Assembly: GCA_964036045.1 (NCBI GenBank)
Contig: OZ038384.1
Span: 25,721,000 to 25,784,999, forward strand
Source: Eutreptiella sp. 'Long Island Sound 2002'
Lineage: Eukaryota; Euglenozoa; Euglenophyceae; Eutreptiales; Eutreptiaceae
DNA: 64,000 nt
Direction of reading: 5' to 3'
Shown here one piece after another: positions 20,619 through 57,420 of the stretch. A model generated the notes under the pieces. The model had not been told where the DNA came from. It saw only the letters and a program-made list of their open reading frames with translations, and searched no databases. Numbering within the stretch: position 1 is the stretch's first letter; each line of letters begins with the position of its first letter. Made by a program: the position numbers and the translations under genes.

Positions 20619-20621
20619 CCC

Positions 20622-25808: not shown

Positions 25809-25811
25809 CTA
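25809..25811 (-). promoter_or_regulatory. In-frame amber between gag and pol of gypsy-2
   Basis: GCC TAG TGG AGC C, with the same frame open on both sides. It matches the gypsy-1 junction in position, stop codon and following bases (WGG AGC C), so it is a candidate readthrough signal, not a random stop. Confidence 0.5.
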
Positions 25812-28842: not shown

Positions 28843-29212
28843 GCTGATTGTTATCCGGCAAAAAATCCCAGTCTATGAAGAAAATTGATGCGGATATTCC
28901 TAAGTAAATCTGAGTGTCCATATCTATCTGAAAAGATTTATATAAATCCGATTGTGAAAAAATATTTGGCCGATCTGGCTCGCGCACGCGCGTCAGCGGC
29001 AAATGGCGATTCCGGGTAAATGATCGGAACGCGGCGGATTTACGATGAATGGACCGCGGAATCAGATCCGGCACATCGAAAATATATAGGTCTGATCCTG
29101 AGACTGAGCTGCGGGGCGGCGATTCCGCCGAAGCAGAGAAAATGACCAAAATGTAGCCAATCTGGGGCAGATCTGCTAAAATCTGAGCAGATGGGGGTTA
29201 GCCGCACTTACA
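28679..29212 (-). repeat. gypsy-2 5' LTR (right)
   Basis: 534 bp running TGTAAG...TTTCA in element sense. It contains the TATA box and the gag start codon. About eight substitutions separate it from the left LTR. Confidence 0.94.
28938..28945 (-). promoter_or_regulatory. TATA box of gypsy-2 LTR promoter
   Basis: TATATAAA on the - strand. Transcription about 30 nt downstream (near 28905) would place the gag ATG at 28842 just inside the RNA. Confidence 0.6.
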
Positions 29213-29217
29213 GTGGG
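29213..29217. repeat. gypsy-2 target-site duplication, right
   Basis: GTGGG, identical to 18269-18273. Confidence 0.88.
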
Positions 29218-33418: not shown

Positions 33419-33457
33419 GGTACTGCAGGCTCTGCAAAGGGCGGCAGCGGGTGGGGG

Positions 33458-34382
33458 TCAGGGCGCGAACACGTGCGACAGGTGCGCAACGGATGAGGGG
33501 TCCCGCAGGTGCACGTGGATCCACAGAAGGGCAGCGCCCGCGGGGCCCGCGCGTTCGTGTGAGGGGGCGTGTGCCCCTTCGATGCGCCGGTGCAGGGCCT
33601 CCTCCTCTGTGCGCCTGCGCGGGCCTGCGGGAGGTTCGGGCCAGGGGCACGCGGCCACCTGGGCGCACCGCGCGCACCTGTTAGCGCCTGTTGACGCTGC
33701 GGAGGACACCGTGTCACATTCCCCGCAGAGCCAGCAGGTGTGTTGGAGCTGGGAGGGCGGCGACCAAGGGTCGAGACGGCGGAGCCAGAGGTCGTCCCAC
33801 CTCTGTCGGAGGGGGTCCCGGATCTCCAGCAGGCGGGCGCGCACGCGGCGCCGGTAGTCCCTGCCAAGCGTCTTCCGCTGGACCTCCCGCCACGTGTCGT
33901 CAGGGAGAATCCCGTGGTCGTGGAAGGCGGCGATGAGGTCGTCCCACGCCGGGTGGGGGTGCCCCTGGGGGGGGGTTGCCATGTACACGTGGCGCCCGGT
34001 GAGGTGGGGCGTCAGCGCATCCCATCGGCACCCGTTCGCGGCGTCCCGGTCGAGGAGGGCCAGCAGGGTGCTGTCCGCGACTGCCTCCGATCTCACTCGC
34101 AGCCCTTCGCAGCCCTCCAGCTCCTGGCGCAGCGCGGCTGCAATGTCGGTGGGGAGCATGAGGAGCAAGGGCCCCTGGGTGTCGCCCAGCCGGGACAGGG
34201 CGTCGTCGTATACCGGCCCCCCAGCTTTGAAGTGCGCCACGGCGAGCTGGGCGGCCCCGTTCTCCCGGGGCTGCCACCGGACGGTGGTCCCGGCGTGTCC
34301 CCATTTGCGTATCCCCGTAGCTCGGAGTACGTTGGCGGCGTGAAGGACGATGCGGGGGCGGACGGGTGTCCTGACGAGTGAG
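33458..34382 (-). pseudogene. LINE-A ORF2, C-terminal fragment
   Basis: The last ~300 codons of ORF2 before the natural stop, TGA at 33458 (ending SHVFAP). It aligns with 41808-42727 of LINE-B and includes the Cys-rich cluster CWLCGEC ... RCARC (near 33720-33670). The rest of ORF2 continues beyond LINE-B at 57406-58675. This copy preserves the original ORF2 end, which LINE-B has lost through a one-base deletion. Confidence 0.82.
34368..34382. repeat. LINE-B target-site duplication, left
   Basis: GTCCTGACGAGTGAG, repeated at 57406-57420. The uninterrupted target is seen in LINE-B itself at 42716-42730. Confidence 0.85.
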
Positions 34383-34402
34383 GTTTGAGGTTTGAGGTTT
34401 GA
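34381..34402 (-). repeat. LINE-B 3' tail, (CCTCAAA)n
   Basis: Three TTTGAGG heptamers on the + strand, identical to the tail of LINE-A at 16531. A tandem-repeat tail replaces poly(A), as in I-type and some other LINEs. Confidence 0.8.
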
Positions 34403-35374
34403 TTTTGCGGGTACTAGACGCCTTTCGGCCCCGGGGGGCCACCTGGTCGGGCCAGGTGATATCCTCCCCACCGGGTCCTAGTGGGGGGCCCTCCAAGACG
34501 CACCTCCTGCCTGGTGGCGGAGTCCCCCGGGTTCACAGAGCTCGGAGCCCCGTCCTTCCCCGGCGTCCCCGTTTCGCCACTCCCCGGTCAGTGCATCAAT
34601 TCGCAGCCGTGGCCGCGGGCGCTTACCCACTGCGTCGCCCCCCTAATGCGTGGTCGCCCGGGGCACCGGCGCCGCCGGGCCCGTGCTACTGGCTTGTCGC
34701 CAGTGGGACCCCCTTGGGCTGGCGCGGTGGCTGCCTAGCCTAGGGGTTGGGGCGTGGCGCTGTGCGCCACTACTGCCTTGGCGGGTGCAGTGTCCCGTCT
34801 GTGTGTGCGCGGCGCTCGCGGCCGGTTCGGGGGGGTTCGGGCCGGTACCTGGTGTTGTGTGTCCCCTTCTTCCCCCTTCCCGCCCCGCGTATCCCGCGTT
34901 GCGTGTGGCGGGCCGTCCCGTCCGGGTGTCCCTTATCCTCGCTCGCTGGTACGCCATTCCATGTGGTCTGTGCGTTCCGCGCGCTCTGTCCGGTTGCCCT
35001 TCTGGTGGTCCCCGCGTGTCCTTTTCGTGTGTGTGCGCTCGCGCTCTCGCGGTGTCCGCTCCCCGCTGGGTGGTGTGGCGCGCGCATCTCGCGTGGTCCC
35101 GGCACTGGGCGCTGGTAGGGCCGTTCCATGTGGTCCGTGCCCCTCCGCGTGTCCTGCCCCGGTCCCGTGCTCCGTCTGGCGTGCTTGGGGGGGGGGCGGT
35201 CCGGTCCCGGTTCCCCCCTACTTGGCTTGGGGTTGCGGGGGCGGCGGCTGGGCGTCCCCGGGGGGGTGCCTTCGTCCATTGCGTGGGGCGTGGGGCGTCC
35301 CCCTTCCCTCCTCTGCCCGTCCACTAGGTGGGCTGTCGGGGTCTGCGTTGCGGGCGTGCGGTTGTGGGGGCCCC

Positions 35375-36225
35375 GCTCCGTTCTCGCGGGAGAGAGGTGT
35401 CGTCTTGGTGCCCAGGCGCCGGCCCGCCAGATTCTCATGACGTGCCTGATGCGCACCGAGCTTCGCCCTGCGGGATGCGTGGGGGGGTTGGGGTGACCGT
35501 GGCTGGAATGGCGCTCCAATGTCCCGGTTCATGGCCCAGCTGGGCAGCCCTACCGCGGGCTTACTCTTGGTACAGGGGGAGGGGGTTGCGGGCGCGTTTG
35601 TTCTGTGACCCGGGTGCCGGTGTATCTCAGAAGGCAGCCACCCCGGAGGTAGCGCACCAGGCGCACGCCGTGAAGGAGCTGGTTCGAACCCCGGGATCGG
35701 TGGTCTCCCATCGATCCCTTCGAATACCGGGCGAGGCCTCCCACCGACCTGTTTGAGTACAGGTGACGGTGCGCACTGCTGCAGGGGTGGGTGGTTCCCA
35801 TGTCTTTTGTCTTTCGTGGGTGGGGGGTAAAACGAACGAGACCTCCACCCGATCCACCGGTATCGGTGGTGGCGCGAGTTGCTGGAGGGGGGGGTGGTTC
35901 CCACGCCACCAACTAGAGAGCTCTATGCGCAGGGATCCCAGGAGCACCAAAGCCCGGGATCGAACCCCCGCACTGGACGATTGAAGACCGACGCTCTCAC
36001 TACTGGGCCGCGGGAGTCTCTTACGCCACTGAGGGGTGTCGTCGGCTATGAATCCTGTCCTGTGGGTGGGGCTGTGCGCCGTGAAGCGCGTTGCGCGTGC
36101 CGGGAGGCCTCAGTCCACGCGCACGGGGTCGGGACAGGGGAGGGGGCTGGGTGGGGTGCGTTGGATCGCCGACTGACGTGCACAGGGGTAAGAGGCGGGC
36201 AGTAGCACCACCGGGTCGCCGACTG
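35375..36225. mobile_element. LINE-B-specific insert with tRNA-like boxes
   Basis: About 850 bp replacing about 160 bp of the LINE-A 3' UTR (17540-17700). It contains a perfect B box on the + strand (GGTTCGAACCC at about 35690) with an A-box-like TAGCGCACCAGG ~35 nt upstream. A second B box, GGTTCGATCCC, lies on the - strand (about 35955-35967) with TAGTGAGAGCG upstream. The boxes point in opposite directions, which suggests one or two SINE-like insertions. The boundaries are approximate and no clear target duplication was found. Confidence 0.4.
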
Positions 36226-36270
36226 ACCGTAGGGCGGGGGGTCGCTCTGCCTCTTTCCGGCCCTCTGCCT

Positions 36271-36924
36271 TCCCTGGGCAGGCAACAAAGCGGGCGTCAC
36301 TGGCGTTGCGTTGTCCATGGGGGGCGTGGCCCCCCATACCACTCCGGTTCGTGTTCACCCAGCCTCTCCGGGTACGATCTGTGCGGCGTCCCGGTGCGCA
36401 GGCGTGGGCCCGCTTGTTCCTCGCGGCCCCCGTGTGGGCCGTCGGCCGGAGCGGGGGGGCGGGTCGCACTCCGGCCCCCCTCTCGGGTGGGGGGGGTCCA
36501 TTCCCCTTGCCTCGGGGGGGGTGTCGCGCTGCGGCCTCCCCGCTCTCGTTCCGGGCGGCGGCCTGCGGTACTCCTTTCTGGCCCTCCCCTCCGGCGCGCG
36601 CGTGCGGCCGGGGCTGAAGTGCCGCCCCGGGGCGGGGGGGGGTGAGGGGCGGCCCGTGTACCGCTCCCCTGGGGGCCCCGGCTGACCTGCAAACCCCCCC
36701 TCTGTCCCCTCGGAGTGGGCTGTGGTCACGGGAGGGTCATGTGGGGCGCGGCCTCCTTCGTGTTCCGTTGTGCGCGTTGCTCCGGCACGCCGGTGTGGGT
36801 TCGTGGGGGCAGGTCCAGCCGCCGCTGCCCTTACCGTGTCGCCGTTCCCCCTGGGGGTGGGGGCGCCCCCCCGGCCCTTGGGGGGCGGAGGGCCGCGCCT
36901 GTGGCTCCCCAGCTGGGGTGGGTG

Positions 36925-36961
<37 letters not shown>

Positions 36962-37274
36962 ACCCCTCTCGCTCTCGGGCCTGTGTGGGAGGGGGGGGGG
37001 GGGGGGGAGTGGGGGGGGTCCTTCGGTTCCCTGGCGATGCCCCCTGTCGGCCAGAAAGGGGGGGGGGGGGAGGGCGGCTTGGCGGTCCCAGCCCCGGGGG
37101 CCAGCCATCGGCCAGGGGGGTCGCGCCCTTCCCCCGCCCCCCTCTACCGAGTGCCGGATCCCCACGCAGTCCCTCCCTGGGGCCCCTCATCTCCCGGCCG
37201 TTGCCGCGCGGCGCTGGCCGGCCGGGGGTGGTCGTGAGGGTTAGCGGTCAGTGGTTAGCGGGTTGCGGGGCCGC
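36271..37274 (-). repeat. LINE-B 3' UTR duplication, unit 1
   Basis: About 1.0 kb, starting near the GGCAACAAAGCGGG landmark (36281) and ending near GGTTAGCGGTCAGTGG (37240). It repeats directly as unit 2. LINE-A has only one unit, split by gypsy-2. Confidence 0.75.
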
Positions 37275-38310
37275 TTTCCCCGGGTAGGCAACAAAGCGGG
37301 CGTCCCTTGGCGTCCTGCTGTCCATGGGGGGCGTGGCCACCCATACCATTCCGGTTCGCGCCGACACGGCTTCTCTGGGCACGATCTGCGCGGCGTCCCG
37401 GTGCGCAGGCGTGGGCCCACGTGCTCTTCGCGGCCCCCATTGGAGCCGGCGGCTGGGGCGTCGGGGCGGGTCACTCCCCGGCTCCCCTCCCGGGCGGGGG
37501 GGTCCGTCCCTTCAGCCTCGGGGGGTGGGGGCCGGGGCCCCTGCGGCCGGCGGGCCGGTGGGGGGGCGGGGGGGGGGGGGGGGGGGTGTCGCGCCGCGGC
37601 CTCCCTGCTCTCGTTCCAGGCGGCGGCCTGTGGTACTCCTTCCTGGCTCTCTCCGCGTCGCCGGTGCGCTCCCTTCCGGCGCGCGCTTGCGGTCGGGGCT
37701 GAAGTGCCGCCCCGTGGTGGGGGGGGTGAGGGGCGGCCCGTGGACCGCCCCCCTGGGGGCCCCATCTGACTTGACACCCTCCCTCCGTCACCTCGGGGCG
37801 GGCTGTGGTTACGGGAGGGTCATGTGGGGTGCGGCCTCCTTCCTGCTCCGTCGTGCGCGTTGCCCCGGCACGCCGGTGTGGGTTCGCGGGAGCAGGCCCA
37901 GCCGCCGTTCCCCCTGAGGGGGGGGCGCCCCCCCGGCCCTGGGGGGGCGGAGGGCCGCGCCTGTGGCGCCCCTGCTGCGGTGGGTGCGGGGGGGGGGGGG
38001 GTGGGGGGGCCGCCCCCCGCCCGCCCCCGGGTCTGTGCGGGGGGGGGGGGGGTGGGTTGGGGGGGGCCCTTTGGCCCCCTGGTGATGCCTCTCGTCGGCC
38101 GCGGGGGGGGGGGGCGGGGGCGGCATGGCGGCCCTGGTCCCGGGGGCCAGCCATCGGCCAGGGGGTCGCGCCCGTCACCCGCCCCCCCTATCGAGAGCTG
38201 GATGCCCGCGCAGGCCCTCGCCGGGGCCCTCACCTCCCCGGCCGTTGCCGCGCAGCGCCGGCCGGCCGGGGGTGGTTGATGGTTAGCGGTCAGTGGTTAG
38301 CAGGTTGCGG
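37275..38310 (-). repeat. LINE-B 3' UTR duplication, unit 2
   Basis: The direct repeat of unit 1: landmarks at 37287 and 38281 are offset by about 1.01-1.04 kb. Diverged by substitutions and G-run length. Confidence 0.75.
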
Positions 38311-38451
38311 GGCAGCCGGTTCCTCCCCGCGCTTGGCGCCCCCGCACTCCCTTCCGTGGGTGGCGGCGCGTCCCCGCACGTCGTGCCATACCGTGGGGGG
38401 GGCGTGGGTCAGGGGGCCCATCCCCCCCTCCCGCGCCCGCCGTCTGGGCCT

Positions 38452-40494
38452 TCACTTGCCCCGCCGCTTGTGTGGGGGCTGGGGCTGCGGCGGCGGCGGG
38501 TTGTGCCGGCGGTAGCGCCAGTGGGCGAGGGCGCTACGCAAAGCCCGGGGGAGCCAGTTGTTGGCGTCCGCATCCGTGATGCGGAGCACCGCTCCCCCCT
38601 CCAGGAAGGCCGGCCACGTCGGCTCCCTGTCGGGCCACGCCGCCCGGATCACTGACCTGAGGACCCTCTCGTGGTCCTCTTGGGCCGCCCACCCCCCCGG
38701 GGGTGCCTCTCTGTTTCCTCCGTCCCTCCGGAGGAGCACGGCATCGAAGGGCCGGTTCCGCGACCTCCTGGAGGTCCCCTGGTTGGCCCAGCACAACCAC
38801 CCGTACACTTCCCCCACCAGGGGGAGGGTCTCCCCCCCCAGCGGGTCCGGGACTGCGCCCCAGTCCAGGTTCCACGGCCGGCTCTCCTCCGCCCCCTGTG
38901 CCCGCCCCCCTCGCTGCTCCTGCACCTGCGGCGCCGATGCCACGCCCCGTCCCCCCTCCGCCGAGGCCATCCGCGCCGGCTCCGCCCTCGGCGCGGGGGG
39001 GGCTTGCTGGTGCTGGTGTCGTGGGGGTTGGGGGGGGATGAGCTCGCCGGCGTCAGGGTCGATGTTGTAGAGGTGGTGGTGGTGGTGGTGGTGGTGGTGG
39101 TAGGTGTGGTGCGCCGGCATCTGTTGGATGCCGGGGGGGATGCACCTCACCGGCTGCACTTCCGGCTGCGGGGGTGCTCCGCCCTCTGCCCCCCTCCCCT
39201 CGCCCCGCCCTCCCCCCTGGGCTCCCGTGCCCCGTCCCTCCTGTCCCTTGGGGCCCTTGCCCTTGCCCTTGCCCTTGCCCTTGGGCCCCTTTCCGGTCCC
39301 GTGCCCGTGTCGCGGGTCCCGCCTCTCGTCCCCCACACCCCGGCCCGCTCGCTCTCCCATCCCCCCTTGTCCAGCCCCCTGCGCCCGGGTGCCCTTCCCG
39401 CGCCCCTGACCACCCTCCCCGTGCCCTGGCCCCTCCCTGACCCCCTGCCCGAGTCGCGGGTCCCGCCTCTCGTCCACCACGCCCCGGCCCGCTCGCTCTC
39501 CCACCACCCCACGCTCCGTCCCCTGCACCTGGGCCTCCTGCCCGCGCTCCCGCGCGCCCTTCCCGTGCCCCGACCCCTCCCCTGCCCCCTGCCTGTCACG
39601 CCGTCCGCCGCTCCCCTCCCCCTCGCCGCTGCGCCCTTCCTGGACCACTCGCCGGGCGTCCCGCTGCCTTTGCAATTGCGGCAGCGTGACGCCCGGCGGC
39701 GAGCGCTCGCGCTTCGGGGGGCGGTCGTGCCGCTCCCGCCCCGGGGGGAAGGGCTTGGGGGGGTACGGCTTGGGGGGGCTGGTGTGGGTGTGGGCGGGGT
39801 TGGCGTGGGCGCGGTACTTCGTGCTCTCCCTGCCCACTGCTGCTGCTGCGGCGGCCGCCGGCGAGGCGTCCGCGGCCCGTGCGGGGTTCTTCCCCCGCTT
39901 GCGCGGCGTGCCAGGGGCCGCAGCCCCTCTCGCGCCCTCCGCACTCTCCTTCACTGCCGTGGCGGCCGCCGACGAGGCGCCCGTGGCCGCGGTCGCAGAC
40001 TCTCGCACATCCTCCTCGGTCTTCTCTGCTGCCGCGGCGGCCGCCCGCGAGGCGCCCACGGCCCGTGCGGGGCCCGTCGCAACCCCTCTTGCGCCCTGCT
40101 TGCTCTCCTGCGCGGCTGCGGCAGCCCTCGGCGACGCGTCCGGCTCCTGCGCCGGGGCTGCCCCCCTTGCCGGCGGCGTGGTGGGGGCCGCGGCCGGGGC
40201 CGCGGCGTGGCTCGCCGCGGTCTCCGCCTCCTGCGCGTCAGGGCGGGGCGGGGCGGCGGGGCTGGCCGCTTGGGCGGCGGGGGCGGCCGTCTCGGCTGGC
40301 CCAGGTTCCCGGGCCGGCGGCGGCGGTCCGACCACCGCCGCCTCCGCCAGCCTCCGCTCCTCGCGCTCCGCGAGGGTCTCCCCCGTCCACTCTGGGGAGG
40401 AGACGGGGGAGCGGGAGCGGGACCGGCGGTGGTGGCGGTCGTCCCGCCCGAGGGACCCATCGGAGTCTGCCATTACTGTTACCCTGGTAGGCAT
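38452..40494 (-). CDS. LINE-B ORF4: poly-His, Lys/Gly- and Ala/Pro-rich protein
   Basis: 680 aa from ATG 40492-40494 (MPTRVTVMADS), the start conserved in LINE-A; an upstream in-frame ATG at 40536 is not. Order of regions: an Arg/Ser-rich start (DRHHRRSRSRSP); long Ala/Glu/Pro repeats; PPKPYPPKPFPPG; Arg/Gly/Glu repeats with GERAGRG motifs; a KGKGKGKG tract (near 39255-39290); a poly-His run (about 39071-39110); then a compact C-terminal block (GEVYGWLCWANQG ... DADANNWLPRALRSALAHWRYRR). It ends in TGA. Low-complexity basic and His tracts suggest RNA or metal binding, but no known domain is recognised. It overlaps the end of ORF3. Confidence 0.72.
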   Translation of the reverse strand: MPTRVTVMADSDGSLGRDDRHHRRSRSRSPVSSPEWTGETLAEREERRLAEAAVVGPPPPAREPGPAETAAPAAQAASPAAPPRPDAQEAETAASHAAAPAAAPTTPPARGAAPAQEPDASPRAAAAAQESKQGARGVATGPARAVGASRAAAAAAEKTEEDVRESATAATGASSAAATAVKESAEGARGAAAPGTPRKRGKNPARAADASPAAAAAAAVGRESTKYRAHANPAHTHTSPPKPYPPKPFPPGRERHDRPPKRERSPPGVTLPQLQRQRDARRVVQEGRSGEGEGSGGRRDRQGAGEGSGHGKGARERGQEAQVQGTERGVVGERAGRGVVDERRDPRLGQGVREGPGHGEGGQGRGKGTRAQGAGQGGMGERAGRGVGDERRDPRHGHGTGKGPKGKGKGKGKGPKGQEGRGTGAQGGGRGEGRGAEGGAPPQPEVQPVRCIPPGIQQMPAHHTYHHHHHHHHHLYNIDPDAGELIPPQPPRHQHQQAPPAPRAEPARMASAEGGRGVASAPQVQEQRGGRAQGAEESRPWNLDWGAVPDPLGGETLPLVGEVYGWLCWANQGTSRRSRNRPFDAVLLRRDGGNREAPPGGWAAQEDHERVLRSVIRAAWPDREPTWPAFLEGGAVLRITDADANNWLPRALRSALAHWRYRRHNPPPPQPQPPHKRRGK

Positions 40495-41767
40495 GCGTGG
40501 TGGCAGGCGCGCCCTTCCCACTACCTCCTGGTGCATCAGTGCCGTGCCGTGGGCAGTGCCGTGTGGTGCTCTGCGGGGGGGGGGGGGGGAGGGGGTGGGG
40601 GGCCGGCTGTGGCGTCAGTTCGCACGGCCGGGGGTCCGCGGCCATCCACCGGCATTGGGAGGGGAGGCGGGGGAGCCACGCGGCCCACGCGTCGCGCCAC
40701 AGCTCCCAGTCTGGGGCGGGGCTCAGGGCCCTGGGCCCCCGGGGGTCGTCGAGCGGTGCCGGGGGCAGCCGCACCAGATGGACCCCCGTAACGGCGGTGA
40801 CCTCCTGTGTGCGCAGGAAGGTGTGTACTCCGTCCCGCGCCGCGGGCGCCGGGAGGGGGGGGCGGGGTACGGGTGTGGCCCCATAGAGGTGGGTGGGGGT
40901 GATCCCCAGGATCCGCCCCGGGTCCCCGCGGGTCGCGACGACGAGGAGGAGCAGGGGGGTGCCAGGGCACTCTTGCCAGAGGACCTGCCCCCTGTGGTGG
41001 GCACCCCTGGTCCTGGAGAGGGGGGGGGACAGGTCTGGGTTAGCCCAGCCGCGGGGCGCGTGCATCGCCGGTGGGAGGGCGGGGCACCAAGTGGGCTCCC
41101 TGGGGAACGCCTCGTAGACGACGGCGTACGGGGGGGTAGGCCCGGTGCCGTCATACACCGGGTTGGTCGGCCGGGGGCGGGCGGACGCCTCGTCCGCGCC
41201 TTCCACGAACACCGTGACCTCGCCCACCTCCAGGTCCTCGTCCGGCGGGTGTAGAAGGTGGAGCGCCGCATCCAGCTCGGACACTCCCCCCGGGTACGTG
41301 GCCCGCGCCTGGTTCAGGTACGGGGCCGCGTCCCCGGGGTAGCGCGTCCTGAGGGCGTGCAGCAGGGCTGGGGCGCTACTGTGGAGGGACATGGCAGACC
41401 CCGCTCCCGTCATCCGGAGGGCGTCCCCCATGGACAGGGGCCGGCCCGACCGATTGGACTCGCGCCACTCCATCCAGTGCCCGTAGAGGGCCGCCTCTGG
41501 GCTGATGAGCCCTGGCCGGACGGCGTTCACGATCCGGTGCATTGCCGGGAGCAACGTAGGGGCCCCCGCTCCGTTCAGGGCGCGGACGGCTGGGAGGGCG
41601 GTCTCGTTGAGGAAGGCCCTCGCACTGCCCTCCAGGTCGCACCGTGCGGCAGCGTGCGCTCCTTTTGCCTCCGCCACCGCGTCCGCCACCAGACCCCGGA
41701 CGGCCGCCTCCTGCGCTCTGCGGCGGGCCCTGGTGTGCCCCGGCCCATCCCCCCGTCGGCGTGGCAT
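40238..41767 (-). CDS. LINE-B ORF3, unknown protein
   Basis: Starts at ATG 41765-41767 (MPRRRGDGPGHTRARR), the same start as LINE-A ORF3 at 33418. Residues 1-~370 align with LINE-A, after which an indel near 40600-40645 puts the two copies in different frames. The natural end is therefore probably near ORF4's start, as in LINE-A (16-nt overlap), and the last ~100 codons to 40238 are spurious. The core contains ALYGHWMEWRESNRSGRPL and DWELWRDAWAAWLPRL. No recognised domain. The ORF2 frame overlaps its first 190 nt only because of a one-base deletion in this copy. Confidence 0.68.
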   Translation of the reverse strand: MPRRRGDGPGHTRARRRAQEAAVRGLVADAVAEAKGAHAAARCDLEGSARAFLNETALPAVRALNGAGAPTLLPAMHRIVNAVRPGLISPEAALYGHWMEWRESNRSGRPLSMGDALRMTGAGSAMSLHSSAPALLHALRTRYPGDAAPYLNQARATYPGGVSELDAALHLLHPPDEDLEVGEVTVFVEGADEASARPRPTNPVYDGTGPTPPYAVVYEAFPREPTWCPALPPAMHAPRGWANPDLSPPLSRTRGAHHRGQVLWQECPGTPLLLLVVATRGDPGRILGITPTHLYGATPVPRPPLPAPAARDGVHTFLRTQEVTAVTGVHLVRLPPAPLDDPRGPRALSPAPDWELWRDAWAAWLPRLPSQCRWMAADPRPCELTPQPAPHPLPPPPPQSTTRHCPRHGTDAPGGSGKGAPATTHAYQGNSNGRLRWVPRAGRPPPPPVPLPLPRLLPRVDGGDPRGARGAEAGGGGGGRTAAAGPGTWASRDGRPRRPSGQPRRPAPP

Positions 41768-44700
41768 GGTGCTGCGGGCTCTGCAAAGGGCGGCGGCGAG
41801 TGGGGGTTAGGGGCGAACACGTGCGACAGGTGCGCAATGGATGTGGGGTCCCGCAGGTGCACGTGGATCCACAGAAGGGCAGCGCCCGCGGGGCCCGCCT
41901 GTTTGTGTGAGGGGGTGTGTGCCCCCTCGATGCGCCGGCGCAAGGCCTCCTCCCCTGTGCGCCTGCGCGGACCTGCGGGAGGTTCGGGCCAGGGGCACGC
42001 GGCTACCTGGGTGCACCGCTCGCACCTGTTGGCGCCTGTCGCTGCTGCGGAGGACACCGTGTCACACTCTCCGCAGAGTCGGCAGGTGTGCGGGAGGTGG
42101 GAGGGCGGCGACCAAGGGTCGAGATGGCGGAGCCAGAGGTCATCCCACCTCTGTCGGAGGGGGTCCCGGATCTCCAGCAAGCGGGCGCGGACGCGGCGCC
42201 GGTAGTCCTTGCCAAGTGTCTTCCGCTGGACCTCCTGCCACGTGTCGCCGGGGAGGATCCCGTGGTCGTGGAAGGCGGCGATGAGGTCGTCCCACGCCGG
42301 GCGGGGGTGCCCCTGGGGGGGGCTCGCCATGTACACGTGGCGCCCGGTGAGGTGGGGCGTCAGCGCGTCCCACTGGCACCCGGTCGCTGTGTCCCTGTGG
42401 AGGAGGGCCAGTAGGGTGCCGTCCGCGACCGCCTCCCACCCCACTCGCAGCCCTTCGCAGCCGTCCAGCTCCCGGTGCAGCGCGGCTGCGATACCGGTGG
42501 GGAGCATGAGGAGTAAGGGCCCCTGGGTGTCGCCCAGCCGGGACAGGGCGTCGTCGTATACCGGCCCCCCCGCTTTGAAGTGCGCCACGGTGAGTTGGGT
42601 GGCCCCGTCCTCTGGGGGTTGCCACCGGACGGTGGCCGCAGCGTGTCCCCACGTGCGTATCTCCGTGGCCCGGAGCACGTTGGCGGTGTGAAGGACGATG
42701 CGGGGCGGGACGGGCGTCCTGACGAGTGAGGATATGTCCCCAGTCCATCCCGTTTGCGGCCCCGGGGCCGCCTGCAGCCATTCCCCCGTCGCCGCGTCCC
42801 ACGGGTGGTCAGGTCCCGCCCCGCGGACCATGGTGGGTCTCGGCCGGGTGTCCGGCCCCCACCCCCGGAGCGGGATGGCGGCGTATCGTTGCGCAGGGGT
42901 CCCCGGGGCGCGCGCGGCGGCGCACCACCGGCCCCACTCCCGCGCCCACTCTTCCCCCACGATGCCCGCCTCCCATGCGGTCATGGAGCCGCGCCCGATG
43001 ATCCACGGTGGGAAAAGGGCGTCTTGCAGGTGCCTCGAGAACCCCCCCGGCAGGTCCTGATACGGGTGGGGGCCCTCTTGGAGCGGGCACTCCAGAGTGC
43101 CATTCACAACACGGAGGGAGGCTACGAAGTCCTTGTCAGGGCGCGGGGGAGGGGGAGGGTGGTCGCCCTCCGCCGCAGTGAGCCACCGGTGCGCCCGGGC
43201 CGCCGCGCTTAGGGGGTCGTGGAGGAGTTGCTCCAGCCGGTGGTTGCGAAGCTCCCACGCGAAGTCCCCTAGCCGGAGCATGTGGTGGAGGAAGTCGTCC
43301 ACCGAGGTCCCTCCCGGCGGGTCGTATCGGGTTATGGCGCGGAGCTGCGCCTCCGCGTCCTCGGGCACCAGTCCGGAGCAGAACACCTCCGTCCACGTGG
43401 CGCCTGCGGAGCACCACGAGGCCACCCACAGGGCCTTGTCCCCAGGTGGGAGGTGGCGGGCCGCCTCGTGCACCGCCTGGCGGTAGTGGGGCCAGAGGAG
43501 CCGCGAGTGGGTGCAGCCCACGTGCATGTGCACCGGGGTCTCTTCCGGGCCGCTGCAGAAAAGGCACGGCTGCGGGACGATGGCGACGCCGGAGAGCCGC
43601 TCCTTCCGGACGCGGAGCCTGCGCTGCACCGGCGTGTGGCCGTCTCGGGCCCGCAGCGCCCGGCGGTTGGTGGCCGCCGCGGTGAGGTCCCGGGCGTGGA
43701 CGTAGGCCGTGGCGTGGGCCGCGCCTAGGGGTGTGTGTCCACGGTGCGTCAGCGCATGGTCTGTCTGCGCCCGTTGTGCGACCTCGCCGAGCACCCGCAT
43801 CGTGGGGGGCCGTAGATCGAGATGGCCGTCACGGCCGGCGACGATGAGTTGGGCGTGGCCAGGGTCCGGGGGCGTGTTCTGCAAGACGGTGTCCTGGGAC
43901 GCCGCCCAGTCCGCCTTGTGCAGTAGGGCGTCACTGTGGTGCGAGGTGGCTCGGACGTACCAGAACGGGTGCCCGGCGTGTTGCCCCCGCGCGCACAGGC
44001 CGTGCCGGAGCCACCTCAGGGGCATCTGGTTGACCACCTTCGCTGCGCCCGCGGGGACCCCCGTGGTTCGCTCGCGATCTGCGTGCCGCAGGAGGTGGAG
44101 GATGACTTCGGCGTCCACCGTGCGGACCCATGGTCTGTGTGCACCGTAATGTAGGGGGAGGGAGGCGGCCACCCCCTCTCCGTCAGGCACCGTGCCCGAG
44201 ATGGCCACCGCCCACGTGCGGGTGAGGTCGGCGGCGAGAGCGACGCTGGTGGCGTGTTTGCAGGGTCCGCCCCCGGACGCGTCAGAGGAGGTGTGTCCCC
44301 AGGCCTCCGGGATCCAGTAGTATCCGGTGGGGCTGAGCCACCCCGCGTTGAGGTCGGTGGAGTGCCACCGGACGTCGGGGTGGCTGTGGGTCAGTTGGTC
44401 CATGCTCAGCGCCCTGGTGTCGCCTGGGCTGATCGCCGGGTGGTCGTGCAGCCGGATCTCCGCTCCGGCGACCGTGCTTGCCCAGGACCGTAGCGCCGTC
44501 ACATGTTCCTTGAGCCACGCCGGGCCCCCGCGCTGGTGTACCACCAAGTGTCCCGTGTCCTCCGGCTGGTCCTCCAGCGCGTGTACCGCCATGTGTGGGT
44601 CGTGCGGCACCCCCGTAGCCACCAGTAGGGCGGTGCCGCGGGGGAGTCCACGGGGTTCGGGCTGGCCTGCCCCCACTTGCACTATCACCCACTCGGCCCG

Positions 44701-48501: not shown

Positions 48502-51500
48502 TCAGCTATCCCGCGTCGGCATCGCCGCCGGGTTCGCTGGTGCCGCCAGGGCATCTGGGTGCGCCGCATCCGCTGAGCCCGTTCCCAGCGGGGCCCACAA
48601 GGGGGCCCGGGGGACCGGGGGAGTCAGGGGGGCCAGGGGGGCCAGCCCCGTGGGGATGGACATGGACCCTGGTGGGGCCGCACCGCCGGCCCCCGGGGCC
48701 GCTCCGGGTGCCTCCTCACCTCCATCTGCGTGGTCGGCTGCCTGGGGCGGGGGGCGCCGGGTGTACGGGGCGTGCCACGGGGACCTCCGTGCTCTCCCCT
48801 GCAGGATGTTGGCGGCCGCCTCCTTGTCGTCCGCCGGGGCCGCAGCGTGCACCGCGTGCCACGCCAGGTGTTCCAGCATCGCCCCGCTGGTGTAGTACTT
48901 GTCCGCACACATGGGGCATTTCGTCGGCTCCGTGGCCCCTCGCGCCGGGGGAGCTGCACCGACTTCCGAATGGCGCCCTCCGCCGCTGGTTCGAAGGGCA
49001 GGTTGGCCAGCGGCACCGTGTGTGGTGCCAGCGTGCGGCCCGGGGCCGCCGCATCGAGGGCTCGCGTCGCGGGCGCGGGCCCGAGGCCTCGGGCGGCATC
49101 GCGCTGCGCGTCCGCCTGCAGCCACGTTTGCCAGTGCGTGGAGCCGATTTGGCGGTCGGGTTTGCTCCTCCACCGCAGGTCGTGGAAGGCCTGTAGCCAG
49201 TGGTACACCGTGGTCGGGACCGCCAGCTGGAGCTCCAGGTCGGCGGGGTGCGCCGCTGCCGGCCACACTCCCGGCCTCGCCGCCCGGGCGTTGTCCTTCA
49301 GCCTGACCTGGAGCAGGAGGGCGTGGTGTTCGCCCTCCCGCAGCGCCTTGATGATCATGCGTGTGCAGTCTGCCACGCGGATCACGGCTTCGGGCCCCGG
49401 CAGGCGTTCAGGGTCGCAGACGACGACGTGCGCGTCCGCCGGGCTGAACATGCAGACCACCCACTGTGGGTTCTGCTGCCCCCGTTGGGCCACCGCCAGG
49501 GTAGCCGCTGGGCGGGCGTGCGTGATGGGCCCCGCGTGGAGGTCCGGGACGTCCGTGGCCCTGATGGCGTCTCCCTGCCACGCGGCCCGTAGATGCTCCT
49601 CCTGGTCGGGGCTCCACACCAGTGCGGGGGGGTTGACCCACCCCGGTTCCTGCCTCTTGTTGGGGGCGCTGACAGCGTGCAGCAGGACCGCCAGCGGCCA
49701 GGGGTCCGCCGACATGTAGTAGGCCTGGGTGGGCCCCTGTCGCCAGTCGACGTGGGACAGGGGCGGGAATGCCCCTTGCCTGGCGGTGCTGTGCCAGACC
49801 GCCCATCGGCCTCCGGCCAGGATGTGCGACCGGTACCCTCCGGCGTGGCCGTGTACGATGGCTTGGTAGCCTGCCGTCTGCAGTACCAGCGCCTCCCCCT
49901 GCTTAGGCCCGGGCGGGGGTGCGCCATCGCCCGCACCCCAGACGCGGGTGCGCCCGCGGAGTGTGGCATGCCACGGGTCTGGTGCATCGCGCTGGGGCCC
50001 TTGTATGCACCCCGCAATTTGCGCCGGGCCGTGGTGGTGGACGAAGCTCTCCCCGCCGTCTGCTAGCAAAGCCGCCGCGACGACGTATAGTTGCTCCGCC
50101 GTGAGGGGCGCCGTCGGCTCGTGCGTCGCGGCCGGCCGTTGGGGCCGCGTGTCGCGGCAGGGGACGTGGGGCAGCAGCTGCGCCGGCCACGCCGCCACTG
50201 GACCCATGGTGACGGCCGCGACCGCGGACGCCAGCGCCGTGCGGTCCGTGGGTCTGTACTGCCGGAGTCCCGTGGTATCTCGGGTGAGGTGCCTGCAGGC
50301 TGCCATCCAGGCCACCGCTCCGCAGTTCGTGCAGTCCGGTTCGGCACCGCTCGCATCGTCGCCTCCCCACTGCTGTACTGTGGTGGCGGTGTCGAGCAGG
50401 GGGGCCCCGCTGTAGCGCCTCCGGGCCCTGCCCCGGCGGGAGGGCGGGCGGGATTGGCTGCGGGTAGTTTTGCGCGCCCCGGCGCTCCGGGTGCGTGTGG
50501 TACGGGTTCTGCCGGCGGTGCTCCGGGGCTGCCCGTGGCTGGAAGAGGAGCTGGTGCAGGTACCAGTGGCCCTCCGCGGCGGACGGATTGCGGAGCGTTA
50601 GCCACTGTTCCACCACGCCTCCTGGGTGCGCGGCCTCGACGCGGCGCTGCAACCCCAGGCGGCCTAGGCGGTTGGACGTGCCCGCGGGTGGGATGTGTGC
50701 CTGCGGGTAGAGCACCCGCAGCGGCTCCAGCGCCAGGTCCAGCACTTCGTCGTTGAGCTGCTTCGTGAGGGCCGACGCCCTGTGTAGGGCGTGGAGGACC
50801 CCGGGCGTGGGGGCCGTGAGCTGTTCGAGCACCGGTCCCGGTGGGTACCGCGTACCCGGGTTCGTCAGCCACTCCCTGGTGTGGCTCAGTACGGCTTTCC
50901 ACACGTCCCTTGTAAAGGCGTGCCGGGGGGCCAATGAGGGGACCATCCGTAGGAGGCGGTGGCACGCCGGCGGCGACCGCATGGGCTGTGGGGCGGCCGC
51001 CGTGATCCACCTGCACGCCGTGCCGGGCACGATCGCCCCCCATTCCACAGTCCCCATGCCCTCGGCATGAATCAACGCCTGGCCTTGGACCATGGGGAAG
51101 TAGGGGCTCGAGCGCCCCTTCCCTTCCCTCCACCGTACCCAGGCGGCCCCCGCCTGCAGGCTGCGGAGCAGGGCCACGCCGGGGAGGGGCGGCTGCGGGA
51201 AAGCCCCCTTGGCGGCCTGGGTGGCGTGGGCCAAGGTGCCCATTGGTAAGTACCACAACGGGAGGGTCCAGGGGCCCGGCAGCGGTTGCGCCACCCCTGC
51301 GTCCCATCGCCACTCGGAGTCTGGCGGGGCGGCCGGGACCGTGACCGTCTGCAGGAAGTGGCGTGCATACTTGTCGGGGTGCCGTTGGAGGGTTGCCGCG
51401 AGGCTGAGCCCCTCCGCCGCTGGTGCCACCGGGAGGCCGCCCCTGGGGCCTGCGCCAGGGGTATTCCTGGTCGGCCGGCCAGGTGTGGAGGTCCCGGGCG

Positions 51501-52198
51501 ATGTCCTCCGCGGTCCCTGTGGGGGCGTCCTCTGGTGCCAGGTGCCACATGACGGCGAGCACCGCCCATGTGGAAAAGGGCCACGCCCGCGGGGGGGTGT
51601 ACACCTGGATGGTCCACTGTGGGCACGCCCGCCGCACGCGGGACACGTGGAGCACCCCTCGGACCATGTCCGCCGCCAGGACCAGCACCATTCCCGAGGG
51701 ATCCACAATGATCCCCTCTGCGGGTCCACCGTGGCGGCCCCGGGTGTGCAGGGCCACCGCCGCTTGTCCCGCGTGGGTGACGCGGTCGACGGCCTCCTGG
51801 ATGTTCACGCTGCCGCGCGCGGTCTCATCCAGGATCCAGCCCTGCGTCACCCCGTAGCGTAGGGCGGCGCGTGCGGCCGCGGGCTTCACCTCGGGCAACG
51901 CTCCGTCGTCGGCATCGGGCTGGGGGTGCTGTCTGGGGCACCAGCCTTCGCCGGTGCAATGGCCCCGTTTCCACGCGGGGCAGATCGCGGATACGCTGCC
52001 CGCCGGCGGCGCAGGTTCCGCGGGCGCGCCCCCCGCGGGGGGCTCCGGCAATGCCTCCAGGTCGGAGTCTGTGCCCGCGTCCTCTTGTGGGGGGTCTCCT
52101 TCGCCGTCTCTGAGTCCCAGCGCCCTGATGACCTCGTGTGCTTCGTCCAGCGTCGGAGATCGGGGGCGTGTCTTGCGTGGTGCCGCGGGTTCCGCCAT
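48502..52198 (-). pseudogene. LINE-B ORF1: zinc-finger protein (three frame changes)
   Basis: Starts at ATG 52196-52198 (MAEPAAPRKTRPRSP), about 70 bp downstream of the tandem array, and would encode about 1,230 aa. A CCCH finger C-x7-C-x5-C-x3-H (CPAWKRGHCTGEGWCPRQH) lies at about 51985-51930. The frame changes near 51440 into a Trp/Leu-rich globular region (LSLAATLQRHPDKYARHF onward). It changes again near 50440 into a frame with CTNCGAVAW and a long folded region (50315-48960). A third change, near 48945, leads to a C2H2 finger C-x2-C-x12-H-x3-H (CPMCADKYY ... HLAWH, about 48915-48850). It ends at TGA 48502-48504, after which the same frame opens directly into ORF2. Confidence 0.72.
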
Positions 52199-52270
52199 TG
52201 CTATGTCGCTGTGTCTAAGAGCAGGGGGCGGGGTGCGGATGTCCCGTGGCTGGTGCGTTGGTGCGTTGGT

Positions 52271-55200
52271 GCGTTGCTCGGTGTGGGGGCGGTGGATGGG
52301 CATCCCCGGGGGGGCGCCTTCCAGTGTTGCGAGGGGCGTCCGGTGTTAGGCGCTGTCCCTCCCCCGGCCGCTCGTCCTCCGGAGCGTGCAGCCAGGGTTC
52401 CGCGACCCGCGTGTCCCGGGCGCGGTCGGTGCGGGCAGTGGACCCTGCACCGGCCCCACAGCGTAGCACTTGCGGGCCGGCGTTGCTCGCTGTGGGGGTG
52501 GCGGAGGGGCGCCCCCGGGGGGGGTGCCTGCCACCGTTGTGAGGGGCGCCTGGTGTCAGGCGCTGTCCCTCCCCCGGCCGCGCTCGCCCTCCGTAGCGTG
52601 CAGCCAGGGTTCCGCGACCCGTGTGTCCCGGGCGCGGTCGATGCGGGCGTGTGGACCCAGCACCGGTCCCACAGCGTGCGCCCTTGCGGGCCGACGCTGC
52701 TCGCTGTGGGGCTGGCGGAATGGCGTCCCCGGGGGGGGCGCTTTCCACCGTTGTGAGGGGCGCCTGGTGTCAGGCGCTGTCCCTTCCCTGGCCGCTCGTC
52801 CTCCGGAGCGTGCAGCCAGGGTTCCGCGACCCGCGTGTCCCGGGTGCGGTCGATGCGGGCATGTGGACCCAGCACCGGCCCCACAGCGTGCGCCCTTGCG
52901 GGCCGGCGTTGCTCGCTGTGGGGGTGGCGGAAGGGCGTTCCCGGGGAGGTGCCTTCCACTGTTGTGAGGGGCGCCCGGTGTCAGGCGCTGTCCCTCCCCC
53001 GGCCGCGCTCGCCCTCCGTAGCGTGCAGCCAGGGTTCCGCGACCCGTGTGTCCCGGGCGCGGTCGATGCGGGCGTGTGGACCCAGCACCGGTCCCACGGC
53101 GTGCGCCCTTGCGGGCCGGCGTTGTTCGCTGTGGGGGTGGCGGAAGGGCGTCCCCGGGGGGGGCTGCCTTCCACCGTTGTGAGGGGCGTCTGGTGTCAGG
53201 CTGTCCCTCCCTCGGCCGCTCGTCCTCCGGAGCGTGCAGCCAGGTTCCGCGACCCGCGTGTCCCGGGCGCGGTCGATGCGGGCAGTGGACCCAGCACCGG
53301 CCCCACAGCGTGCGCCCTTGCGGGCCGACGCTGCTCGTTGTGGGGATGGCGGAAGGGCGTCCCCGGGGGGGGTGCCTTCCACCGTCATGAGGGGTGCCTG
53401 GTGTCAGGCGCTGTCCCTCCCCCGGCCGCTCGTCCTCCGGAGCGTGCAGCCAGGGTTCCGCGACCCGCGTGTCCCGGGTGCGGTCGATGCGGGCGTGTGG
53501 ACCCAGCACCGGCCCCACAGCGTGCGCCCTTGCGGGCCGGTGTTGCTCGCTGTGGGGGTGGCGGAAGGGCGTCCCCGGGGGGGGTGCCTTCCACCGTTGT
53601 GAGGGGCGCCTGGTGTCAGGCGCTGTCCCTCCCCCGGCCGCTCGTCCTCCGGAGCGTGCAGCCAGGGTTCCGTGACCCGCGTGTCCCGGGTGCGGTCGAT
53701 GCGGGCGTGTGGACCCAGCACCGGCCTCACAGCGTGCGCCCTTGCGGGCCGGCGTTGCTCGCTGTGGGGGTGGCGGAAGGGTGTCCCCGGGGGGGGTGCC
53801 TTCCACTGTTGTGAGGGGCGCCTGGTGTTAGGCGCTGTCCCTCCCCCGGCCGCTCGTCCTCCGGAGCGTGCAGCCAGGGTTCCGCGACCCGCGTGTCCCG
53901 GGCGCGGTCGGTGCGGGCGTGTGGACCCAGCACCGGCCCCACAGCGTGCGCCCTTGCGGGCCGGCGTTGCTCGCTGTGGGGGTGGCGGAGGGGCGCCCCC
54001 GGGGGGGCCGCCTGCCACCGTTGTGAGGGGCGTCTGGCGTCAGGCGCTGTCCCTCCCCCGTCCGCTCGTCCTTTGGAGCGCGCAGCCGGGGTTCTGCGAC
54101 CCGTGTGTCCCGGGTGCGGTCGATGCGGGCGTGTGGACCCAGCACCGGCCCCACAGCGTGCGCCCTTGCGGGCCGGTGTTGCTCGCTGTGGGGGTGGCGG
54201 AAGGGCGTCCCCGGGGGGGGTGCCTTCCACCGTTGTGAGGGGCGCCTGGTGTCAGGCGCTGTCCCTTCCCCGGCCGCTCGTCCTCCGGAGCGTGCAGCCA
54301 GGGTTCCGTGACCCGCGTGTCCCGGGTGCGGTCGATGCGGGCGTGTGGACCCAGCACCGGCCCCACAGCGTGCGCCCTTGCGGGCCGGCGTTGCTCGCTG
54401 TGGGGATGGCGGAAGGGCGTCCCCGGGGGGGGTGTCTTCCACCGTTGTGAGGGGCGCCTGGTGTCAGGCGCTGTCCCTTCCCCGGCCGCTCGTCCTCCGG
54501 AGCGTGCAGCCAGGGTTCCGCGACCCGTGTGTCCCGGGTGCGGTCGGTGCGGGCGTGTGGACCCAGCACTGGCCCCACAGCGTGCGCCCTTGCGGGCCGG
54601 CGTTGCTCGCTGTGGGGGTGGTGGAAGGGCGTCCCCGGGGGGGAGTGCCTTCCACCGTTGTGAGGGGCGCCTGGTGTCAGGCGCTGCCCCTCCCCCGGCC
54701 GCCTGTCCTCCGGAGCGTGCAGCCAGGGTTCCGCGACCCGTGTGTCCCGGGTGCGGTCGATGCGGGCGTGTGGACCCAGCATCGGCCCCACAGCGTGCGC
54801 CCTTTTGGGCTGGCGTTGCTCGCTGTGGGGGTGGCGGAAGGGCGTCCCCGGGGGGGGTGCCTTCCACCGTTGTGAGGGGCGCCTGGTGTCAGGCGCTGTC
54901 CCTCCCCCGGCCGCTCGTCTTCTGGAGCGTGCAGCCAGGGCTCCGCGACCCGCGTGTCCCGGGCGCGGTTGATGTGGGCGTGTGGACCCAGCACCAGCCC
55001 CACAGCGTGCGCCCTTGCGGGCCGGCGTTGCTCGCTGTGGGGGTGGCGGAAGGGCGTCCCCGGGGGGGCTGCCTTCCGCCGTTGTGAGGGGCGCCTGGTG
55101 TCAGGCGCTGTCCCTCCCCCGGCCGCTCGTCCTCCGGAGCATGCAGCTAGGGTTCCGCGACCCGCGTGTCCCGGGTGCGGTCGATGCGGGCGTGTGGACC

Positions 55201-56410
55201 CAGCACCGGCCCCACAGCGTGCGCCCTTGCGGGCTGGCGTTGCTCGCTATGGGGGTGGCGGAAGGGCGTCCCCGGGGGGGGTGCCTTCCACCGTTGTGAG
55301 GGGCGCCTGGTGTCAGGCGCTGTCCCTCCCCCGGCTGCCCGTCCTCCGGAGCGTGCAGCTAGGGTTCCGCGACCCGTGTGTCCCGGGTGCGGTCGATGCG
55401 GGCGTGTGGACCCAGCACCGGCCCCACAGCGTGCGCCCTTGCGGGTCGGCGTTGCTCGCTGTGGGGGCGGCAGAAGGGCGTCCCCGGGGGGGGTGCCTTC
55501 CACCGTTGTGAGGGGCGCCTGGTGTCAGGCGCTGTCCCTCCCCCGGCTGCTCGTCCTCCGGAGCGCGCAGCCAGGGTTCCGCGACCCGTGTGTCCCGGGT
55601 GCGGTCGATGCGGGCGTGTGGACCCAGCACCGGCCCCACAGCGTGCGCCCTGGCGGGCCGGTGTTGCTCGCTGTGGGGGTGGCGGAAGGGCGTCCCCGGG
55701 GGGGGTGCCTCCCACCGTTGTGAGGGGCGCCTGGTGTCAGGCGCTGCCCCTCCCCCGGCCGCTCGTCCTCCGGAGCGTGCAGCCAGGGTTCCGCGACCCG
55801 TGTGTCCCGGGTGCGGTCGATGCGGGCGTGTGGACCCAGCACCGGCCCCACAGCGTGCGCCCTTGCGGGCCGGCGTTGCTCGCTGTGGGGGTGGCGGAAG
55901 GGCGTCCCCGGGGGGGGCTGCCTTCCACCGTTGTGAGGGGCGCTTGGTGCCAGGCGCTGTCCCTCCCCCGGCCGCTCGTCCTCCGGAGCGTGCAGCCAGG
56001 GTTCCGCGACCCGTGTGTCCCGGGTGCGGTCGATGCGGGCGTGTGGACCCAGCACCGGCCCCACAGCGTGCGTGCGCCCTTGCGGGCCGGCGTTGCTCGC
56101 TGTGGGGGTGGCGGAAGGGCGTCCCCGGGGGGGGCTGTCCTCCACCGTTGTGAGGGGCGCCTGGTGCCAGGCGCTGTCCCTCCCCCGGCTGCCCGTCCTC
56201 CGGAGCGTGCAGCCAGGGTTCCGCGACCCGCGTGTCCCGGGTGCGGTCGGTGTGGGCGTGGGGGCCCGGCACCGGCCCCACAGCGTGCGCCCTTGCGGGC
56301 CGGCGTTGCTCGCTGTGGGGGTGGCGGAAGGGCGTCCCCGGGGGGGGTGCCTTCCACCATGGTGAGGGGCGCTTGGGGTCAGGCGCTGTCCCTCTCCCGT
56401 CTGCCCGCCC
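52271..56410 (-). repeat. LINE-B 5' tandem array, ~212-bp unit x ~19.5
   Basis: The landmark TTCCGCGACCC recurs at 52399, 52610, 52822, 53035 and so on to about 56219, spaced 211-213 bp. Units are about 90-97% alike by eye. The unit length is not a multiple of three, so the many ORFs across it are by-products. It lies directly upstream of ORF1, the position of promoter monomers in mouse L1 5' UTRs, so it may be the promoter array. Confidence 0.92.
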
Positions 56411-57405
56411 ACTGCCGGGTGGGTTGCCGGGGTTCGTTGGGTGTGTGCGGTGTGTGTGGTGCCTGTGCCGTGCGTGTCGTGGTGTGTGGTGCTGCTCTTT
56501 CCTTGGTCCTCCGGTGCTCCCCTCTCCGGTGTCTCGGTGCGGTGTTGTGCTCGCCGTGTGCCCGCCGTGTCCCCTCCTCTGTGTGCGCCCCTTGCTCGTT
56601 CGCTGGCTACCCCTTGTTCCTTTCGCGGCTTCGTTGCTCTTTACCCTTTCCTCTACCCCTCTCCCTGGCATGCACTTTTTCCCTGCCTCCGCTTTGTTGC
56701 GTGTCTTCGTCCTTTTCCTTGTCGGCCCGGGCTTCCTCTTTTGAACCTGCGTAGGGCCTGCGTAGGGAGAGAAGGGTGCGTAAACGAGCGTGCGGCGGCG
56801 GCGGTTTTGTCGCGACACGGCACCTCGAGCTGACTGGTACGTCATGCGACATTCGTGTGCGACCGGCTTGCGTGTAGGTTTATCGCCCCACTTGCTCCCG
56901 GCTTGTTTCCACCCCCCTTTGGTCGCTACCTTTTCTCGTCGCCCGTTCCGCGCGCGCGGCGTGACGTGCAACATACCTGCCTCTTTCCCCACTACCTTAA
57001 CGTGTCCTAGTCCTCCCGCCTTGTCGGGCGTTCGCTTATGTGTGACGACGGCACGACGCAATACTTGCCTAAGCGTCTAAGACAACCCTACTTTAACGCC
57101 CGGACGACGCAGACACGAGCATACGCTTCTCTTCGGGACCTGTGAGGATAGAACATGGGTGCGTGCACGTGTGTTCGTTGGGACCCGGCACTCGCCGGCG
57201 CTATGCTATTTGTGTGTTTGCTCTTCTTGTCCCCCTCCCTGGCTATTTGTGTGTTCTAACCCACGCAACTCCGCGGTTGGCGACGTGGCACGACATGGTA
57301 ACATACTTGTGTTCTTGGTGGCGGTGTGTGGCTTGTCTACTATTCGTTTGCATGCGGCGGCATACCTTTTGTTCCCTTTCGCTCCCTTTCGCCTCCATGT
57401 TGCTC
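56411..57405 (-). other. LINE-B 5' leader
   Basis: About 1 kb of less GC-extreme sequence between the element's 5' end and the array. A basic open frame (57061 leftwards, start MRRAVVTHKRTP) runs into the array but has no family features. The 5' boundary is fixed by the 15-bp duplication that starts at 57406. Confidence 0.6.
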
Positions 57406-57420
57406 GTCCTGACGAGTGAG
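57406..57420. repeat. LINE-B target-site duplication, right
   Basis: GTCCTGACGAGTGAG, identical to 34368-34382. Confidence 0.85.

Follow-up and report, generated by a model that had tools for sequence, protein, structure and literature searches.

Positions 25,721,000 to 25,784,999 of contig OZ038384.1 from Eutreptiella sp. 'Long Island Sound 2002' (assembly GCA_964036045.1), a stretch of 64,000 nucleotides referred to here as the window, carry on the minus strand, from 57405 (5') to 34381 (3'), one copy of a non-long-terminal-repeat (non-LTR) retrotransposon, 23,025 bp in length. It lies within LINE-A, a 5'-truncated copy of the same family of long interspersed nuclear elements (LINEs), which usually measure 4-8 kb. 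Its parts, in 5' to 3' order, are a leader, an array of 212-bp units, four open reading frames (ORF1 to ORF4), a 3' untranslated region (UTR) of ~4 kb and an (AAACCTC)n tail. The sequence CCTCACTCGTCAGGAC flanks the element at both 34381 and 57405 as a target-site duplication (TSD) of 12-16 bp, the leading CCTC of which may be part of the 3' tail instead; the first-pass annotation, which worked from the letters of the window, had correctly placed both ends by a duplication of LINE-A sequence. Comparison of the window with itself gave no LTR-like repeat pair within 34381-57405, in agreement with the earlier statement that no LTR element is nested inside, and the LTR element found at 18274-29212 lies outside. 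The dimensions first given for the array (~4 kb, here 52271-56399), ORF1 (~1.2k codons, here ~1.23k), ORF2 (~2.2k codons) and the 3' UTR (~4 kb) hold as well. A non-LTR-type reverse transcriptase (RT), an APE domain, absence of LTRs, a short TSD, a fixed 3' tail and a variable 5' end are all found, as in a LINE.

The host assembly, 2.28 Gb in 2205 contigs, was searched with the 5' 976 bp of the window copy, and 40 loci, scored from 1852 candidates, proved 97-100% identical to the query and were spread over 20 different large contigs. A copy on contig C5 (C5:125015099-125042106; 27.0 kb, 34.5 array units, TSD AACACTGTC) has its first 181 bp missing and, apart from extra array units, is colinear with the window copy from leader to 3' end at 97-99% identity. 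Two more, on contigs C17 (C17:35034219-35058001, locus L020; 23.8 kb, 18.5 units, TSD CACATGGGCACCCCA) and C15 (C15:35571297-35595288, locus L021; 24.0 kb, ~19 units, TSD CTCTCACCTAGTCG), were sampled over 10 kb at the 5' end, 3.6 kb across ORF3-ORF4 and 2.5 kb at the 3' end; their 3' ends lie within ~30 bp of the positions predicted from array sizes. TSDs in these three copies and the window measure 9-16 bp, unit numbers vary from ~18 to 35 (19.5 in the window), and all four end in AAACCTC units, the heptamer tail described at first. The original picture, in which one very long LINE has four ORFs and an array in its 5' region, is thus borne out by the colinear copy and by the lengths of all three. 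We consider it very probable that the window element is a single insertion from a non-LTR retrotransposon family that is young, very long and present in high copy number. We are equally confident that the complete unit spans ~24-27 kb and consists of a ~1.0-kb leader starting at GTCGCGCGATCGC, a further ~1 kb, the array, ORF1-UGA-ORF2-ORF3-ORF4, the 3' UTR and the tail (Table 1). Because ORF2 sequences cluster by the hundred and insertions are 97-98% alike, the family has probably been active recently.

Table 1. Features of the nested element and of its surroundings; positions are those of the window.
Feature	Position	Strand	Basis
Whole element copy	34381..57405	-	TSD at either end; colinear with a copy elsewhere in the genome
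Leader-exon remnant GAGCAACATG, joined at 57396/57395 to exon beginning GAGGCGAAAG	57396..57405	-	copy comparison
Remaining 5' leader, with more GTATG-type donor-like sites	56400..57395	-	97-98% identity in the other 39 scored copies; site scan
5' array, 212-bp units, 19.5 copies, 93% matches	52271..56399	-	repeat analysis; other copies
ORF1, ~1.23k codons, ATG 52198, CCCH-like and C2H2-like motifs, frameshifted here	48502..52198	-	ORF and translation comparison
UGA separating ORF1 and ORF2 (same frame)	48502..48504	-	identical in C5, C17 and C15 copies
ORF2, ~2.2k codons: APE, RT, CCHC-like zinc motif, long C-terminal extension	41824..48501	-	translation, Pfam, PDB
ORF3, 509 aa, ATG 41767; acceptor-like CCCTTTGCAG/AG at 41780 just upstream	40238..41767	-	third-position excess against LINE-A
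ORF4, low complexity, first ATG 40536 (also 40494, 40473)	38452..40536	-	weak coding signal
Two ~1-kb direct repeats in 3' UTR, 77% identical	36267..38316	-	window self-comparison
3' tail, about three AAACCTC units	34381..34401	-	3-4 units in three other copies
LINE-A 5' piece (ORF2 region)	57406..58677	-	91.8% identical to 42715-43986
LINE-A middle piece (ORF2 C-terminus, ORF3, ORF4, part of 3' UTR)	29213..34380	-	89.6% to 42731-40077, 82.6% to 39924-38014
LINE-A 3' piece	16528..18273	-	89% to 34378-35389, 80% to 37278-37828
LTR element in LINE-A 3' UTR, gag-pol-like ORFs, 534-bp LTRs 98.5% identical	18274..29212	-	self-comparison, ORFs

The 5' junctions were compared in a sample of 32 copies, the window included, made up of 30 of the 40 scored loci together with the upstream parts of L047 and L048. 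In 28 of the 32 the sequence extends upstream of the window's 5' end into a conserved leader, the remaining four being the window, L029, L047 and L048. Sixteen of the 20 loci compared start at the same base (GTCGCG), with flanks that are unrelated except between L012 and L013, which are duplicates of each other, and between L035 and L036, which are related. The start of L031 differs by ~1 base, the duplicated pair L015/L019 and L018 start ~13-20 nt later, and L029 reaches the same GTCGCG start; eight other loci (L010, L011, L024, L026, L028, L032, L034 and L038) are 5'-truncated at various points. The window copy, at first called apparently full-length, therefore does not begin at the family 5' end: it lacks ~1.0 kb of leader that other copies possess, and 185 bp of this loss fall at a GT-AG junction. 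The copy is also defective in two genes: ORF1 is divided among several frames, and ORF2 contains an in-frame stop at 46510-46512.

Relatives of both proteins read through these lesions. P0028 (part of ORF1, 1060 aa, 155 cluster members) passes the ORF1 breaks of the window and shifts frame near its own end, and P0001 (ORF2 from an internal Met, 2181 aa, 438 cluster members) passes the ORF2 stop. By strict motif patterns, four ORF1 relatives gave a CCCH motif in P0068, a C2H2 motif in P0028 and neither in P0097 and P0041; ORF1 has no Pfam family, with one match of P0028 far under the cut-off (E 0.22), and its profile drew one weak match from PDB (E 1.3). A resemblance of part of ORF1 to a peptidase, noted by eye, is not put forward as a finding. 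The UGA that follows ORF1 is identical, with its surroundings, in the window, C5, C17 and C15 copies, and 26 of the 213 protein records collected terminate at it. ORF2 has no ATG ahead of the first APE motif, and in the window copy its frame extends past ~41824 to 41575. ORF3 codes for 510 aa in the C17 copy and 410 aa in the C15 copy, and like ORF4 it has no Pfam family.

Comparison with LINE-A gave 28, 21 and 53 changes at first, second and third codon positions in part of ORF2 (417 codons), 19, 22 and 39 in the ORF2 C-terminus (300 codons) and 24, 25 and 40 in ORF3 (379 codons), with 28, 27 and 21 in a 3' UTR control (135 triplets). These patterns suggest that coding constraint acted on ORF2 and ORF3 earlier in the family's history. 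The coding status of ORF4 is uncertain, and the chance that it is GC-rich low-complexity sequence and no gene falls only somewhat short of even: its codon-position signal is weak (64, 78 and 85 changes at 485 codons), it matches no Pfam family, and its frame ends early, at 654 codons stop to stop, in the C15 copy. On the side of a gene, the frame measures 720 codons in both the window and C5 copies and 757 in the C17 copy, and an acceptor-like site, a C-run followed by GCAG/AG, precedes it at 40570.

Within ORF2, the APE domain (PF03372, 7.2e-10, whole profile) and the RT (PF00078, RVT_1, 2.3e-17) both score above the Pfam cut-offs, and to this extent the APE-RT-RNase H-CCHC order first proposed stands; the zinc motif (zf-RVT) stays under its cut-off, at E 0.028 and 0.0022 in two scans. 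The C-terminal 481 residues match nothing in Pfam, in a search that used no reference for the restriction-like endonuclease (RLE), which Dualen/RandI elements carry at the C-terminus in addition to their APE. The ORF2 profile matched ten PDB sequences, R2 and L1 reverse transcriptases, and the RT core can be aligned (E 1.6e-11) with R2 elements (PDB 8gh6, from R2 of Bombyx, 9dou and 9nl3). Unlike the R2 clade, whose members have an RLE, a single ORF and rDNA as target, this element has an APE upstream of the RT and more than one ORF (the RLE itself was not searched for), and the flanks of the 20 loci compared differ, with no fixed target site seen. Dualen/RandI, I, R1, Tad and plant L1 elements have a long ORF2 with an APE; this element shares that feature with them and, if real, an RNase H-like region and a CCHC motif.

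The nearest RT found outside the family belongs to P0207, a JGI metagenome protein of 1546 aa with 32% identity over 58% of the query, and no outside relative of ORF2 exceeded 32% among the best 8000 candidates scored per search. In a tree of 17 RT rows, from which P0148 and P0213 (no recognised motif) and the host LINE L001 were left out, the family forms a long, isolated branch (2.12 changes per site), separate from the only named references, human L1 and two R2 elements, and groups weakly with P0207 (84/85), with eight of the 14 inner branches unresolved. Because of the isolated branch, the weak grouping with P0207 and the distance of all relatives, we describe the element, on its sequence, as a LINE of unplaced clade relative to human L1 and two R2 elements. 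This is compatible with the first-pass remark that it matches no LINE clade, within the range of those three references.

Comparison of the copies suggests how the short leader of the window arose. In unspliced copies a leader ending in CGGACGAGCAACATG/GTATGA continues through a 185-bp segment that closes with TATGTAG/GAGGCG and lies at the position of the window junction. In the window, in L047 (contig C4) and in L048 (C5:80.65 Mb), GACGAGCAACATG or GACGAGCAGCATG is joined straight to GAGGCG, in different flanks, so that the window keeps the last 10-14 nt before the leader GT fused to the leader AG site. L047 has a GCAGC variant also found in L034 and L038, and its junction therefore arose separately. 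L029, with its full 5' end, uses a second donor, ACCCAA/GTATGT, and has 502 bp removed up to the same acceptor as the window. In these four insertions, then, both donors are GT and the common acceptor is AG, and 4 of the 32 inspected copies lack a GT..AG-bounded leader segment while the flanking sequence is continuous. Separately, the leader intron of L020 has a run of ~30 A downstream of the window copy's donor.

In human L1, RNAs with a spliced leader are reverse-transcribed into genomic copies that lack a GT-AG leader segment and have TSDs, the SpIREs (spliced integrated retrotransposed elements; PMC5860796). Spliced RNAs of the present element seem to be reverse-transcribed in the same manner, since one junction recurs in three independent insertions and in a fourth the same AG is joined to a different GT, and the window copy was probably made from an RNA after splicing had excised a piece. 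The likeness to human L1 is that of an APE- and RT-bearing LINE with what seem to be spliced-leader retrocopies, read here from genomic copies only; L1 joins one donor to several acceptors, whereas this element so far joins two donors to one acceptor (PMC5860796). The copies that share a start ~10-15 nt before the donor suggest a second transcription start there. Transcription would then begin at the leader start and also at this second start, the APE domain of the ORF2 protein would nick DNA, and the RNA would be copied by target-primed reverse transcription; where the leader had been spliced out beforehand, a 5'-incomplete copy of a spliced RNA, such as that in the window, would result.

We think it improbable that the window junction is instead an internal deletion, or an ordinary 5' truncation aided by microhomology. 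Truncation is common in the family, as the eight loci above show, and the GGAC end of the window TSD overlaps leader sequence GGACGAGC, but against both stand the one junction common to three differently flanked insertions, of which one derives from another sequence variant, and a fourth insertion in which another donor meets the same acceptor, with GT and AG at the boundaries. Less probable again is a trans-spliced leader, in place of a cis exon, as the source of the short GGACGAGCAACATG start. Three copies do start within a few nucleotides of one another, ~10-15 nt ahead of the donor, but the same 14 nt stand in cis with GTATGA in most compared copies, so no separate leader gene is needed.

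Several points weigh against a very long, recently active family that retrocopies spliced RNAs. Splicing is inferred from genomic copies alone, and L029, L047 and L048 were read at their 5' parts; the 4 of 32 is not a frequency, because L047 and L048 were fetched for having matches that began at query base 1. Filler of 25 nt in the C17 copy (L020) and 4 nt in the C15 copy (L021) separates TSD and element. Four open frames together were seen in no copy (ORF2 of the C17 and C15 copies was not read): the window copy has a broken ORF1 and a stop in ORF2, the C5 copy a stop in ORF2 and a broken ORF3, and the C17 copy a broken ORF1. The third-position excess is absent in every region between the window and the recent C5 copy, and the coding signal thus rests on one older copy, LINE-A. 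Nor was the RNase H of the earlier domain order confirmed: the region matched nothing in Pfam or PDB as a single sequence, nor in PDB with a 22-row ORF2 profile, and its spaced D/E residues were picked out by eye only. The remaining proposal, a LINE of ordinary size to which separate insertions or an assembly join have added the array, ORF3/ORF4 or the long 3' UTR, could appeal to the unusual length and to the lack of Pfam families for ORF3 and ORF4, but retains almost no probability, since the C5 copy is colinear through leader, array, all four ORFs and tail, the C17 and C15 3' ends with their TSDs fall where array size predicts, LINE-A holds ORF2-ORF3-ORF4-3' UTR after an independent insertion, and the coding signal of ORF3 resembles that of ORF2. 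Comparison with other copies, the test set at the outset, thus did not refute a single long element, and on these copies we reject a join, separate insertions and a nested LTR element.

How four ORFs might be expressed is a more tentative matter. It is possible, though we would not favor it, that the 24-27-kb RNA is the template while each ORF is translated from an mRNA of its own, in which the leader exon is spliced to an acceptor before that ORF, as in retroviruses. If so, the mRNAs would lose the array as an intron, and ORF2 would take its start codon from a leader exon that ends in ACATG/. At the site CTCCAG/GAGGAC the leader ATG would join in frame as ATG-GAG-GAC (M-E-D-P/T-T-G-D-A-L-W), and the missing ORF2 start could be explained either by such splicing or by readthrough of the UGA. 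Among 1268 AG sites, ranked with rounded, approximate weight matrices, the acceptor-like sites that closely precede ORF4, ORF1 and ORF3 came 9th, 17th and 20th, and the weaker one for ORF2 came 140th; none of the eight top-ranked acceptor sites lies just ahead of an ORF start.

LINE-A is ~80-92% identical to the nested copy, with its pieces in matching order, and is interrupted twice, by the nested copy and by the LTR element in its 3' UTR. As a separate insertion, it indicates that the ORF2 C-terminus, ORF3, ORF4 and 3' UTR belong together. Direct repeats of 1.13 kb (15399-16530 and 58676-59804, 95.6% identical) adjoin both LINE-A ends and are either an exceptionally long TSD or an older repeat hit by LINE-A. 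A second LTR-type element occupies 1-13265 on the plus strand, with long ORFs between repeats (1-2056 and 10778-13265, 94-95% identical), the left one cut off by the window start. Part of the array unit (56314-56459) resembles 3' UTR sequence at 35234-35369 (73%), and the element's own sequence may thus be the source from which the array expanded. A 3' UTR stretch at 35930-36010 (minus strand) looks by eye like tRNA A and B boxes, a possible relationship to short interspersed nuclear elements, and ARAGORN calls no tRNA there; its sole call, a tRNA-His at 44865-44934 on the plus strand, antisense within ORF2, was taken as chance, and a scan against Rfam gave no match at gathering scores. Elsewhere in the assembly, the first 1.2 kb of contig C17 (L051, C17:1-1200) contain 153 TTAGGG units, and at L033 one copy of the LINE directly adjoins a short TTAGGG run.

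Human L1 measures ~6 kb and differs from this element, at 24-27 kb, in having a poly(A) tail in place of a heptamer tail and in lacking the four-ORF layout and the 212-bp array. The novelty with respect to known LINEs is the size, the number of ORFs and the retrocopying of what seem to be spliced leader RNAs; a search of open-licence literature for exceptionally large LINEs and for non-LTR elements with introns found no such element. ORF3 adds a protein that bears a coding signal and falls in no known Pfam family. The presence of spliced and unspliced copies together makes the leader splicing conflict of human L1 testable in a very different LINE, and a single target-primed event that copies an RNA of 24-27 kb would test the processivity of a LINE reverse transcriptase.

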